The translations under genes and the position numbers were made by a program. Below are positions 28,114 through 33,730 of a stretch of 44,045 nucleotides of DNA, piece after piece; position 1 is the first letter of the stretch; each line of letters begins with the position of its first letter. Under the pieces are notes generated by a model. The model had not been told where the DNA came from. It made no database searches and saw nothing but the letters and a program-made list of their open reading frames with translations. Source of the DNA: Planctomyces sp. (GTDB lineage: Bacteria > Planctomycetota > Planctomycetia > Planctomycetales > Planctomycetaceae); contig JAIXUU010000030.1 of NCBI GenBank assembly GCA_027483405.1, positions 1 through 44,045 on the forward strand, read 5' to 3'.

Positions 28114-29241
28114 TCAGGCGTCGTCGCCCAGCATCATTCGCAGATAGCTCTCGTAGCGTACTCGTGGGATCAGATCCATCTGCACAGCCCGAATTACGGC
28201 ACAGTCTTCTTCCCGATAATGGCGGCAACTGGGGAAGCGGCATAGAGCCACAAAGGGGCGAAACTCTACAAAATAGCCTTCGATCTCTTCCGGACGAACA
28301 TCCCAGAGTTCCATCTGCCGGATGCCGGGCGTATCGACCACCCAGCCACCTTCAATCAGTGGTAACAATTGGGTGTACCGAGTTGTGTGTTTGCCTTTCT
28401 GCGTGACTTCACTCACCTGGCCGGTCTGGAGAGACAATCCGGGCTGAACAGCATTGAGCAGACTCGATTTCCCCACACCGCTTTGCCCGGCGAAGACCGT
28501 CTGCTCATTTTTGAGCAGTTGCCGCAATCGATCAACACCATAACCAGTGGTCACGCTGGTCATCACGACATCGCAGCCAATCTGGGAATACCAACCCAAA
28601 AGTGAGACCAACTCGACGGGATCAACCAGGTCGATTTTATTGACGCAGACAATCGGGTGTACGCCTCCTTTACCGGCACTGACAAGAAAACGATCGATGA
28701 GCGCTGGCTTCAGATTTGGCTGCGCTGCCGAGCCCACAATGAGCATCTGGCTCACGTTCGCGACCAGAATGTGCTCGCGATTCTGGTGCCCGCGGGAAAG
28801 GACACCTTCGCGGGGTTCGACTCGCTCAATCACACCCGTCGTATCGTCAGAGGCTGTGATCCAGACCTTATCTCCCGCCACGACGGCATTGCGGGTTTCG
28901 CGGGCGACTGTTCTGACAATGCGCCGGACACTGCACATGAATCGGCGGCCATCTTCAACCTGGACAGTGCATTGAGTCGATCCCACGGATGAGAGGACTC
29001 GACCGTAAAGTGCCTTTTCGGGATCAATCTCCAGCACAATCCGGTTTCCATCCAGCGTGGCGCCGCTGATGGTGCGTTTGCGGCTCATCTCATTGCGGCC
29101 GCGAACACGCTCGCTCGATTTCAATTCAAAAACGCGGTCCGCATCGACTTCCACATCTCTGGTGAAATCATTCTTGCGTTGCCGCGTGCTGCGGTTCTTC
29201 AGCAGGTTGGCCCGCAGTTGAGGTTTCGGCTTTTTGGCCAT
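28114..29241 (-). CDS. rsgA: Ribosome small subunit maturation GTPase RsgA
   Basis: The 375-residue product has the circularly permuted GTPase order of RsgA (YjeQ): an N-terminal OB-fold, the G4 motif NKIDLVDP (residues 201-208) before the G1 motif GQSGVGKSS (252-260), then TTRYTQLLP and DTPG (303-306), and a C-terminal zinc site (Cys334, Cys339, His341, Cys347 in CRFPSCRHYREEDC). RsgA helps late maturation of the 30S subunit and releases RbfA, with GTP hydrolysis stimulated by the ribosome. The N-terminus is longer than in E. coli by about 30 basic, low-complexity residues (MAKKPKPQLRANLLKNRSTR). ATG 29241 gives this typical start; the frame is open to 29259. Confidence 0.96.
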   Translation of the reverse strand: MAKKPKPQLRANLLKNRSTRQRKNDFTRDVEVDADRVFELKSSERVRGRNEMSRKRTISGATLDGNRIVLEIDPEKALYGRVLSSVGSTQCTVQVEDGRRFMCSVRRIVRTVARETRNAVVAGDKVWITASDDTTGVIERVEPREGVLSRGHQNREHILVANVSQMLIVGSAAQPNLKPALIDRFLVSAGKGGVHPIVCVNKIDLVDPVELVSLLGWYSQIGCDVVMTSVTTGYGVDRLRQLLKNEQTVFAGQSGVGKSSLLNAVQPGLSLQTGQVSEVTQKGKHTTRYTQLLPLIEGGWVVDTPGIRQMELWDVRPEEIEGYFVEFRPFVALCRFPSCRHYREEDCAVIRAVQMDLIPRVRYESYLRMMLGDDA

Positions 29242-29307
29242 AAGTGGCAGATCCCGCAAAAAACCGATCTCTATGAATTCACTCCACAGAGGAACGCAGG
29301 GGTAGAC

Positions 29308-30873
29308 TCATTCATTTCTTGACCAGTTCAATCTCGACAACGATTCTTCCCAGGCGGTTCGCAGCAAACTGATCTGATCATCCAGATCCCGATGAAACTG
29401 CAATTCCAATTCGGAGTTCACGTTAGATTGTTCCAACCGGCCAGCAATCAGTTTACCAGATCGAGCCGTCTCAGCGGTATGCAATACGGCATTTCCTGAT
29501 TTGCCAGTCGTCGTAAACAGGCCGGGGATTTTTTCCTGAAGCTGAGTCGCATCGGGGACTGTGGCCATAGTGATCACACCCAGCGATGAAAGCTCACTCC
29601 CTGCTGTGGCGGCTTGAACTTTGCCAGTCTCGTCAATCAGCAATTGTGTGCAACTTTCAGGAGCGACGATGGGCGGGTCCAACGGATAAGACCTTGTGCC
29701 AATCTCGACCGCAAGTTGCCTGTCTTCATTCCAGACGAGATGGCCCACACGTGTCAGCAGTTGTTGTTGATCGTGTCGCACCACAAACCAGCCGTAGCCC
29801 TGAATCGCGAGATCCAGTGGTCTTTCGGTAATGATCCATTCGCCGGGTGTTGGATCGATGGTCGTACTCAAAGTCGGCACTTGATCTGCCTGTGGAGTGC
29901 CATGGCTTTGGAGTTGGACCACCCGGCGGCGATAACCAATCGTCTTCGCCTGAGCCATGTTCTGGCGGTGAATGTGCTGTGCTGCGCGAAGGACTCGAAT
30001 TTCTGGAGCCACCGCTTCGATCACATCGGCTGTGCGTAAGACCTCACCGCCGGCATGAGCAGGGATCTGGTGGCTGCCAAATTCTCCGGAAAATGTTTCA
30101 TCGGGCTGCGATGGGATCGCATTCGAGTCCCGGCCCGACGGCTGATCCGAGTTTCCGGGAATCGTGGCATTCTGAGAACCGATTTCCAGGGAAGATTTCG
30201 GCAATCCCACAGGGAACTGCTGCCTCAGCCGAATGAGATCTCTCAGCGATTCCACAGGGACGTTCTGGAACTGCTCCACCCAGATATTGAGTTCGTCTTC
30301 GCTGGCGCTCGGCAATTCTTTTTTGATCACATCGAGACGCTGTTGGCGAGCCGCCATTTCACGCGGTGAACGAGGGACGCTGAGATTCGATGGAGTTTGC
30401 TGAGCTTTGGAAGGTGAATTCGGCTCTTGCACCTGAATCTCCAGAGGAAGATCGGGCAAAGTCGCGGGTTCTTTGAGCGGTGATTCAGCGGGAGGGCCGC
30501 TGTCTGCTTGAGACAAGGGAAGTGGGGATGCATGAGGTTGGAACGGTGCAGGTTCGGAAATGCGTTGTTCGGTTTCACCAGAGGAATGGTTCGTCAGCGA
30601 TCCCGTGCTGGCCAAAATCCTGCCGCCAGAAAGTGTTGCCTCCTTTTCAGAGGACTTAATTACCTGGCGGCTTTCAGCAAAAGCTGGAGACCGCGAATCA
30701 TCTCCCGGTCGAGTTCTTGCGGGAAAGCTCTCGGCATGAGGCCACCAATTCAGCAAGGCAATATGCACTCCAACTGTGCCTGCACAAACGATGAGAACTT
30801 TTGTCAAAATGGATGACTGGGACGACTGGGTGTCCAGGGCAGTTTTTTGTGGACTCGGTGATTCGTTGCTCAT
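29308..30873 (-). CDS. Membrane-anchored FlgG-like flagellar rod-family protein
   Basis: The 521-residue product has a single span at about residues 22-41, a long Ser/Pro/Glu-rich linker (about 45-280, with a helical patch at 170-222), and a C-terminal domain of the FlgE/FlgF/FlgG family. The family signals are RVLRAAQHIHRQNMAQAKTIGYRRR (293-317), the counterpart of the N-terminal rod helix, RPLDLAIQGYGWFVV (351-365), TRVGHLVWNEDRQLAV and GKLIAGRLEQSNVNSELELQ (473-492). In real rod proteins the first helix is at residue 1 and there is no anchor or linker. No flagellar gene lies nearby. This looks like a rod fold reused in the envelope; a true flagellar role is possible but less likely. Confidence 0.75.
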   Translation of the reverse strand: MSNESPSPQKTALDTQSSQSSILTKVLIVCAGTVGVHIALLNWWPHAESFPARTRPGDDSRSPAFAESRQVIKSSEKEATLSGGRILASTGSLTNHSSGETEQRISEPAPFQPHASPLPLSQADSGPPAESPLKEPATLPDLPLEIQVQEPNSPSKAQQTPSNLSVPRSPREMAARQQRLDVIKKELPSASEDELNIWVEQFQNVPVESLRDLIRLRQQFPVGLPKSSLEIGSQNATIPGNSDQPSGRDSNAIPSQPDETFSGEFGSHQIPAHAGGEVLRTADVIEAVAPEIRVLRAAQHIHRQNMAQAKTIGYRRRVVQLQSHGTPQADQVPTLSTTIDPTPGEWIITERPLDLAIQGYGWFVVRHDQQQLLTRVGHLVWNEDRQLAVEIGTRSYPLDPPIVAPESCTQLLIDETGKVQAATAGSELSSLGVITMATVPDATQLQEKIPGLFTTTGKSGNAVLHTAETARSGKLIAGRLEQSNVNSELELQFHRDLDDQISLLRTAWEESLSRLNWSRNE

Positions 30874-31255
30874 GCAGGGATTCTCCGAGCGGATCTGTCA
30901 GTTCGGGGCGCTGGCGGTGTCTAGGGGCATTATCAGTGCGAGAACGAAATTGTGCTTCCGGGAAACAGTCGAATGCATAAACCTACGGTCGAAATTTCGC
31001 CATAAGTCATTTCATAGAAATGTTTTTTGAATCGACCCTGCAGATTCTAGCAACTCGATCGTCTTTTCTGAAGGTCGATGTTCCTGCAATCCAAGGCCTC
31101 TCAAAACCGAAATCTCTTAAATTGCCAGCAAATACACCGACACATTTTGATGTTTTAGTCTGTTGAATTGTCGTGGTTTCCGATATAACTTCCTAGTGAT
31201 TCTACGGCTCTTCTTGCCGCCTTCTCTCCTAGTCCCATCGATAAAGGCTGATCTC
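30874..31255. other. Divergent intergenic region
   Basis: The region separates the FlgG-like gene (minus) from the DUF1559 prepilin gene (plus). The only candidate element is the promoter at 31163-31189. I see no gene or repeat. Confidence 0.5.
31163..31189 (+). promoter_or_regulatory. Promoter candidate for DUF1559 prepilin gene
   Basis: TTGAAT (31163-31168) and TATAAC (31184-31189) are spaced by 15 bases, slightly short. Initiation here would give a leader of about 60 bases before the ATG at 31256. Confidence 0.35.
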
Positions 31256-32329
31256 ATGTCAAAACGCTCTGGATTTACGCTCATTGAACTGCTGGTGGTG
31301 ATCGCCATTATCGCCATCCTGATTGCGTTGCTCCTTCCCGCCGTCCAGCAGGCCCGAGAAGCGGCTCGCCGGACCCAGTGCCGTAACAATCTGAAGCAAC
31401 TGGGCCTCGCACTCCACAACTACCACGATGTCTTTGGCTCATTTGTGTACCGCAAAGGTGGCACACGCGGAAACGGCGATGCTTCGCGCCTCGATGGAAA
31501 CTACAACCGCAGATCAGGCATCGTGTCGCTTTTGCCCTACCTTGATCAGGCACCATTCTACAATCGGCTGGAAGCTGGTGACCCCAGCACCACACCACCT
31601 GTTCCCCCTGGCGGTGCTGCTCCGTGGAGTGGTTGGAGTGGCTACAACATGAGTATTGCAGCCTTCAAGTGCCCATCGGATCCAGTCGTTATCCAGCCAC
31701 GCGGAACTGTGAATTATGCGTTTAACATGGGCGATTTCATCACCAACAATCGTGATGAAACTCGTACCAATGGCTTGTTTGCCTGCAATGCGACTTTTGG
31801 CGTTCGTGATGTGACTGACGGTACCAGCAACACCCTCGCGATGTCTGAGCGATGTGCGGCCAACTTCGGGTTGGCTGGGAAATCTAATGCAGACTATCGT
31901 GAGTCGACACTGTGCAATGTCACAACAATTACCACAAACCCTGGCTCCTGCGTCACACAAGCCCTGGCAGTCAGTTCTAACCGTCGTTACACAACGGTGA
32001 CCAACGTTAAAGGTCGATTTAGCGGTCTTTGGTCGGACGGCCAGGCAGAAATCGTCGGATTTACGCCGATCCTTTCACCTAACTCACCATCATGCATCAG
32101 TGATAACAATGGAAGTTCCGACGGTCCAAGTACGGTTCTTTCCGCCAGCAGTTTCCACACAGGTGGTGTTCATGCTTTGATGGCTGATGGTGCTGTCCGA
32201 TTCATCTCCGATAACATCGATGCTGGCGGCCTCGGGGCAAATGCCAATACACTCGGCGGGCCCAGCCCACATGGCGTCTGGGGTGCACTGGGAACTCGTG
32301 CTGGTGGCGAAGTCACGGGTGATTTCTAA
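31256..32329 (+). CDS. DUF1559 prepilin-like protein (H-x9-DG type)
   Basis: The 357-residue product starts with a type IV pilin-like leader: [20 protein letters not shown], where prepilin peptidase would cut after Gly6 and methylate Phe7, with Glu11 in its usual place. The helix continues to [29 protein letters not shown], the diagnostic start of DUF1559. Near the end [12 protein letters not shown] and VRFISDNID give the H-x9-DG signature. Planctomycetes carry tens to hundreds of these genes; they are thought to form pseudopilus-like surface or periplasmic structures. Fourteen or so Cys and Gly-rich segments make the head domain. AAAGG precedes the ATG. The gene end carries three 14-base repeats. 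Confidence 0.95.
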
Positions 32330-32369: not shown

Positions 32370-32394
32370 GCCAGTCTCACAATTCGAGACTGGC
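32370..32394. terminator. Hairpin between convergent genes
   Basis: GCCAGTCTC (32370-32378) pairs perfectly with GAGACTGGC (32386-32394) around a 7-base loop. It lies 40 bases after the prepilin stop and overlaps the last codons of the convergent sigma factor gene. No T run follows on either side, so it may be a weak or Rho-assisted terminator. Confidence 0.5.
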
Positions 32395-33672
32395 GGCCTT
32401 CCTGGCCAGAAAATCTTTCACTGCGGCATCTTCCGTCAGGCCCATGGCGATCATGAGATCACTGTGGGCCTGACTGTTTTGGCCTTGCCGTCGAGCGAGT
32501 TCCGCTGAAACCACCCACCAGGGCTGATAAGTTCTGCATGCCTCGCGCGGAATCAGAGCGAATCGTTCCTTCGCCTGTTCCATCTGATTCGCTTGCAGTA
32601 AAGCCCCGACTTGAGCCACTCTCGCACCCAGAGACGGTGCAAAGCTCAGCAATCCCTCATAGAGCACGGCAATCGCTGGCCAGTCCACAACCGCCTGCAC
32701 CCTTGTAAAGTGCCGCCGGGCACAATGGGCCGATTGAATCGCCGCTTCCCATTGAAATCGACCCGGGGCTTGTTGTTGAAAGGCGGCACTTAACACCGCT
32801 TCCGCCTCATCGAGCATCGCCCCATCCCACAGTTCCGAAGATTGTTCGAGCAGCGGAACATACTGGCCTTCGCTTCCACGCCTGGCGTCACGCCGCGCCT
32901 CACAGAAGAGCAGGAGTGCATACAGCCCTGCCGCTTCGGCAGATTGAGGTAATATTTTTTGAACCACTTGTGCCAGCCAGATGGCTTCTTGGGCGAGAAC
33001 TCGGGTACCAGACTGACCAGACATCGTTTCATCGAAGGCTGTTCCGTAGGCCGCATAGATGGCACTGAGAACATCATCCAGTCGATCCCGCCATTCGTGC
33101 TCAGGTGGCAATTCAAAGGGAATTTTCGCCACTTTCAGTTTGTTTTTTACCCGGACGAGACGCTGACTCATCGTCTGCGGATTGATCAGAAACGCCGAGG
33201 CAATGCGCCCCGCATCAATTCCCAGAACGGCCTGCAAAATGAGTGGCGTTCTCATCGAAGGTTCGATCGCGGGATGAGCGCAAGCGAACATCATGGCCAG
33301 TCGATCATCCTGCAGAGGATCTTCGGTCGAGTGCATTGCCGATTTCTCCTGCAGGAGAGCCATGACCGGGCTGATGACTTCGCGGAGCACACGATCTCGC
33401 AGTTGCCTATGCCTGGTCTCATCGAGCCATTTCCGCTGCGCGACTCGAATCAGCCATGCTTCAGGATCGACTGGTAACCCGCTGTGTGGCCACGTTTCCA
33501 GTGCGGTCAGCAGAGCGCTCGCCAGGGCATCTTCTGCAGCGGCCAGGTCATTCGTCTTCCGACAGATGATCGCCACCAACCGGCCATAGCTCTCGCGGGC
33601 CACGCGTTCGACCGCGAACTGCCATTCCCCGGAAGTCACGCGATGATCAGCAGCATTTTGTGAACCACTCAT
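32377..33672 (-). CDS. ECF42-type RNA polymerase sigma factor
   Basis: The 431-residue product has sigma region 2 (FAVERVARESYGRLVAIICRKTNDLAAAEDALASALLTALE, then PEAWLIRVAQRKWLDETRH) and region 4 (PSMRTPLILQAVLGIDAGRIASAFLINPQTMSQRLVRVKNKL), followed by a C-terminal domain of about 230 residues with TPR-like helices. This is the form of group ECF42, which has no anti-sigma factor and is encoded beside DGPF/YCII proteins, as here. The C-terminal part is thought to be needed for activity. ATG 33672 follows GGGAGAC; the frame is open to 33723. The DGPF gene ends 58 bases upstream, so both are probably on one transcript from the element at 34178-34204. Confidence 0.92.
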   Translation of the reverse strand: MSGSQNAADHRVTSGEWQFAVERVARESYGRLVAIICRKTNDLAAAEDALASALLTALETWPHSGLPVDPEAWLIRVAQRKWLDETRHRQLRDRVLREVISPVMALLQEKSAMHSTEDPLQDDRLAMMFACAHPAIEPSMRTPLILQAVLGIDAGRIASAFLINPQTMSQRLVRVKNKLKVAKIPFELPPEHEWRDRLDDVLSAIYAAYGTAFDETMSGQSGTRVLAQEAIWLAQVVQKILPQSAEAAGLYALLLFCEARRDARRGSEGQYVPLLEQSSELWDGAMLDEAEAVLSAAFQQQAPGRFQWEAAIQSAHCARRHFTRVQAVVDWPAIAVLYEGLLSFAPSLGARVAQVGALLQANQMEQAKERFALIPREACRTYQPWWVVSAELARRQGQNSQAHSDLMIAMGLTEDAAVKDFLARKAASLEL

Positions 33673-33730
33673 CGCGTCTCCCGGCCTCGAACTTTTGCGA
33701 TTCGACCTCAATTGCGTACACAAAAACTTT

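Follow-up and report, generated by a model that had tools for sequence, protein, structure and literature searches.

A FlgG-type rod domain behind a predicted membrane anchor, retained in planctomycetes without rod or hook genes

The planctomycete window analyzed in this study, a DNA stretch of 44,045 nucleotides from a budding bacterium of aquatic habitats, encodes a protein with a flagellar rod domain at its C-terminal end and a hydrophobic segment at its N-terminus, which raises the question of what a rod domain does behind a membrane anchor. To our knowledge, the axial proteins (rod, hook, and filament) are regarded as exclusive parts and substrates of the flagellum. The ORF at 29308..30873 on the minus strand was confirmed (ATG start, 521 residues), and the whole gene was assigned to a membrane-anchored rod-domain protein by its TIGR03506 match (97 bits) and its relatives. 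As the preliminary description of this DNA had stated, no flagellar gene is nearby: none was found among the 20 ORFs scanned on either side in the window (0/20), and the FlgG and FlgF of the same genome (contig C450) and its FlhA (contig C289) are encoded on other contigs. The neighboring genes that provide the context are an RsgA GTPase gene downstream (28114..29259, minus strand) and a divergent upstream gene for a DUF1559/N_methyl pseudopilin-like protein (31163..32329, plus strand).

The protein contains a single hydrophobic stretch, a putative N-terminal signal-anchor at approximately residues 22 to 44 (30742..30810; this and the following features are on the minus strand), with a mean Kyte-Doolittle value of 2.03 for residues 22 to 40. 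A matching hydrophobic N-terminal segment (Kyte-Doolittle values of 1.5 to 2.7) is present in 20/20 aligned relatives. Linker 1 (residues 45 to 165; 30379..30741) is rich in Pro, Ser, and Ala (52% P/S/T/A/G) and differs in both sequence and length among relatives; the transmembrane span and Pro/Ser-rich linker described previously are in agreement with these data. A conserved module of approximately 46 residues with a near-invariant Trp (residues 178 to 223; 30205..30342; profile A2, 3.4e-18) lies between this linker and the rod domain and had escaped the preliminary description. The pattern of its consensus, ..I..EL..A..eER.iW.e.L..LPp...r.lL..R, suggests a helical module. Linker 2 (residues 224 to 285; 30019..30204) and an internal copy of the N-terminal (D0) helix of rod proteins (residues 286 to 320; 29914..30018) were delimited by alignment of relatives. 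This helix copy has the motif '..N.a.a.T.Gy.R', starts near residues 286 to 290, close to the residue 290 proposed earlier, and aligns from residue 19 of FlgF onward, also with all relatives. In all aligned relatives, the helix is found from residue 286 onward behind the hydrophobic anchor, whereas it forms the extreme N-terminus of true rod proteins, which pass through the type III system and have no signal sequence. The FlgF/FlgG D1 core (residues 332 to 488; 29410..29880; PF22692 at residues 356 to 421) is followed by a degenerate C-terminal D0 region (residues 489 to 521; 29311..29409), in which PF06429 is unmatched.

In profile searches, residues 298 to 490 match the FlgF, FlgG, and FlgE models, and the FlgG-family signals previously noticed in the C-terminal part are therefore genuine; every tested point of the preliminary description proved correct. 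The scores are above the cut-offs of TIGR03506 (FlgEFG; 1.5e-27, 97.3 bits versus a curated subfamily cut-off of 70.25) and of the PF22692 D1 domain (35.1 bits versus 27), and below the equivalog cut-offs of TIGR02488 for FlgG (79.2 versus 252.75 bits) and TIGR02490 for FlgF (84.3 versus 178.5 bits). The best relatives among PDB sequences are FlgF (4.9e-9) and FlgG (2e-6). A chance match is ruled out because PF22692 is matched in 20/20 aligned relatives and no fewer than 31 genera share the full architecture. The C-terminal D0 model PF06429 gave no match in the 521-residue protein at E values up to 10, and the anchored rod gene was not among the matches when its own genome was searched with this model; among 20 relatives, PF06429 is marginal or weak in 6, and the N-terminal PF00460 is so in 3. 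Since the C-terminal D0 helix is degenerate, rod-like polymerization is probably absent.

By the defining features tested in its sequence, the anchored protein is neither FlgG nor FlgF. It has the D1 domain in common with Salmonella FlgG and FlgF (7bin, 5wrh), as well as the junction motifs 'LDLAIQGYGWFVV' and 'LEQSNVN', and their N-terminal D0 helix survives in it as a remnant. Unlike these proteins, it carries a signal-anchor, two linkers, and the 46-residue module ahead of the rod domain, its D0 C-helix is degenerate, it scores below both equivalog cut-offs, and it is encoded outside flagellar loci and kept without rod or hook. An AlphaFold model of the rod domain from a single sequence (mean pLDDT = 40.6) was unusable. 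A PHROGs search of the 521-residue protein gave no match, and similarities to YjgA (E = 0.09) and YqeH (E = 0.03), which are below the cut-offs and not recurrent, were rejected as chance. In a tree of rod domains, a single branch (support 82/68; present in 78% of the bootstrap trees) separates 40 anchored copies from FlgG and FlgF, and the copy of genome G011 is the one nearest to canonical FlgG and FlgF. The tree has several long branches and moderate support, and is consistent with a single origin of the anchored copies, from a FlgG-type protein that the ancestor of the family possessed.

A survey of planctomycetes that included strains lacking flagellar parts found the full anchor-module-rod form in no fewer than 65 of the 120 genomes and 31 of the 50 genera that represent the window's family; both were counted by hand and are minima. 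Twelve of the 120 genomes have no anchored-rod profile match among the matches listed. Outside the family, where about 175 genomes were searched, two matches to the module profile were obtained, both marginal, and the architecture was not found beyond this one family. No described family with the anchor-module-rod architecture was found in Pfam, NCBIfam, PHROGs, or the PDB sequences, nor did a literature search, which covered few subscription journals, find a paper on such a planctomycete protein. The rod domain itself is already known; the tethering, the module, and the persistence without a rod are new.

The module-only profile A2 recovers a second family besides the anchored rod proteins, namely lipoproteins. 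Their Gly-Cys lipobox is invariant, a copy of the module lies in their N-terminal part, and their conserved C-terminal domain differs from that of the anchored rod proteins. They are found in 231/248 genomes of the class (for example, L067:6919-8880; G001:C1:3595921-3597771; and, in the window's own genome, L066:8078-9278, cut at the contig end). The lipoprotein family has no Pfam match, and a conserved neighborhood of its genes was looked for and not found. As in the anchored rod protein, the module is located behind a membrane anchor and a low-complexity linker; the lipoproteins differ in their lipid anchor, their C-terminal domain, and their spread across the class. Because the module is the same, the lipoprotein and the anchored protein may interact with each other or share a binding partner. 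Genomes G012, G192, G245, and G262 (genera g10 and g64) encode the module behind an anchor in proteins of 138 to 193 residues without a rod domain (L165:1836-2417, L166:2212-2667, L167:2328-2777, and L168:2521-2937), which indicates that some genomes can do without the D1 domain. In G234, the anchor and module form a protein of 247 residues, and the rod domain is found elsewhere in a frame of its own.

INDEPENDENCE from the flagellum is suggested by 14 genomes of seven genera, in which the anchored protein is the sole match to TIGR03506, a model that is strong on FlgE, FlgF, and FlgG and weak on shorter or longer axial-type proteins in flagellated relatives. These rod-less carriers belong to genus g34 (G036, G174, G189, G195, G212, and G259), genus g4 (G006, G155, and G265), and other genera (G009, G030, G088, G273, and G279); G212 is the single-contig genome among them. 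FliF, FliP, and FlhA are all kept in 12/14, and G273 is missing FliF alone. In G279, a draft of 370 contigs that is 96% complete, FliF, FliP, FlhA, and canonical FlgEFG were undetected, and the copy of the anchored protein is full-length; among the carriers, this draft is the clearest case without a type III system. Flagellated members of g34 (G183, G204, G209, and G218) have 12 to 13 FlgEFG matches and two FlhA each, and the three flagellated members searched for FliF and FliP have two of each. Among rod-less G036, G189, G195, and G259, dN/dS is 0.13 to 0.22 (dS below 1, unsaturated), so the gene is maintained in these four species. The anchored protein has persisted after the rod and hook were lost and, in one draft genome, after loss of the entire export core.

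That relatives keep the anchored protein after loss of the rod and hook suggests the re-use of a swimming-motor component as a part of the cell envelope. We consider it most plausible (probability of roughly 0.55) that the protein is an inner-membrane-tethered periplasmic protein, predicted to be exported by Sec, that descends from a FlgG-type rod ancestor and acts as a flagellum-independent envelope component. An envelope or periplasmic location would follow from the signal-anchor. The use of a rod-type fold in the envelope, as the preliminary description had envisaged, gains weight from the retention without rod and hook; its further suggestion of a cell-surface location finds no support over a periplasmic, inner-membrane-anchored one. 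The protein would have left the flagellar type III exporter and adopted the Sec pathway once the signal-anchor, the linkers, and the small helical module were placed ahead of the rod domain, and its hydrophobic N-terminus would direct it through Sec and then stay as its inner-membrane tether. The D1 β-domain has been retained and the rod-packing C-terminal helix has decayed; with the intact D0 lost, the protein would not polymerize and would most likely be a single tethered unit. The module may bind a partner or another copy of itself, the D1 domain may contact another envelope structure, and the anchored protein would work independently of the flagellum. A bridging or scaffold role is what this anatomy would suggest. 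There is about an even chance that the rod domain exchanged the type III exporter for Sec, is tethered to the inner membrane by way of the module that it has in common with a core planctomycete lipoprotein, and became an envelope protein that outlived the flagellum; in rod-less species, it would then be the sole axial-type protein beside a kept export core.

Most rod-less carriers hold FliF, FliP, and FlhA, and thus some link to the export core is possible. The main alternative is that the protein is part of a flagellar-type export machine: tethered beside the FliF/FliP/FlhA core, it might serve as a cap, a plug, or a substitute for the rod, chiefly where a species has the core but no rod or hook exported by the type III system. 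The presence of the three proteins in 12/14 rod-less carriers, the rod-protein origin of the D1 domain, and the complete genome G212, in which FliF-FliG-FliH-FliI, FliO/P, FliR, and FlhA occur with no other FlgEFG protein, are all in line with this proposal. However, the draft G279 retains the protein with the core undetected, whereas G033 and G145 have FliF, FliP, and FlhA and no anchored-rod profile match among the matches listed, and these three genomes weaken it. In addition, the anchored rod gene is not adjacent to core genes, and flagellated families outside this one are without a module-bearing rod protein. We regard a function in the export machine as unlikely.

The neighborhoods of the orthologues, compared over 21 extended loci and the window, are non-flagellar, which rules out that the anchored rod gene belongs to a flagellar operon. 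A single conserved neighborhood was seen among them: in five genera (G004, G006, G016, G027, and G198; loci L079, L080, L085, L089, and L076), genes for an ECF sigma factor, a secreted coiled-coil protein, a DUF1549/DUF1553 protein, and a DUF1501 protein lie downstream of the rod gene, on its own strand and in the order given. DUF1501 is present in 4/5 of these loci, the remaining one ending before it, and the gap between the rod gene and the ECF sigma gene is 12 bp in two of the five. This conserved order and tight spacing would fit an envelope-stress or surface operon, with the anchored protein as the extracytoplasmic partner of the ECF sigma factor and the DUF1549/DUF1553/DUF1501 proteins. 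Nevertheless, an ECF neighbor is missing from every other locus in the comparison, the window among them, and the part that precedes the anchor is at most 21 residues long in aligned relatives, which is too small for an anti-sigma domain; such an operon function is improbable. A large sigma-70-type factor with a C-terminal DUF6596 is encoded two genes from the rod-domain gene in the window (32377-33723, minus strand) and is distinct from the ECF gene found in the five genera.

An accessory role confined to the working flagellum, for example as a bushing or assembly factor, would agree with the flagellar genes in the window's genus and with FlhA in nearly all genomes of the family. The rod-less copies would then be relics, but they are intact and under purifying selection, and the protein is absent from flagellated families outside this one, so that we consider this role very doubtful. 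A functionless, decaying FlgG duplicate, to which the long branches, the fast-evolving sequences, and the loss of the domain in some genera might point, is extremely improbable given that the ORF is intact in no fewer than 31 genera, and a pseudogene or relic is ruled out by the dN/dS of 0.13 to 0.22.

Bacillus subtilis FlhO and FlhP also belong to the FlgF/FlgG type and have their genes away from the main fla/che operon; both are functional rod subunits whose termini are normal and which have no membrane anchor. FlhO and FlhP thus resemble the anchored protein in their type and in their distance from the main flagellar operon, and differ from it in being functional, unanchored rod subunits. 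Rod assembly with these two proteins has been described (PMC12153297). A precedent for flagellar-type parts that serve without a flagellum is the non-flagellated Lysobacter enzymogenes OH11, in which remnants of the flagellar type III secretion system are present (PMC7277350); the case there is one of export-apparatus proteins and twitching motility, whereas a predicted Sec-exported rod-domain protein is concerned here. If a family-wide, selected, Sec-routed copy does persist without rod and hook, a structural domain of the flagellum has been co-opted by the envelope. The species with FliF, FliG, FliH, FliI, FliP, FliR, and FlhA but no rod offer a natural experiment on the use of half a flagellum. 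The export-core loci of G212 (L153:4318-9033, L154:7795-10481, and L108:6641-10461) were found in a genome that also has a sigma factor with this core and no canonical FlgE, FlgF, or FlgG. G036 (L107, L155, and L156) has a similar export core together with an FlhF-like SRP-type GTPase and FliN. In G224, a genome without FliF and FliP, an FlhA remnant with an in-frame TGA (G224:C7:71710-71907; L150) was observed, and the export system of this genome is apparently in decay.
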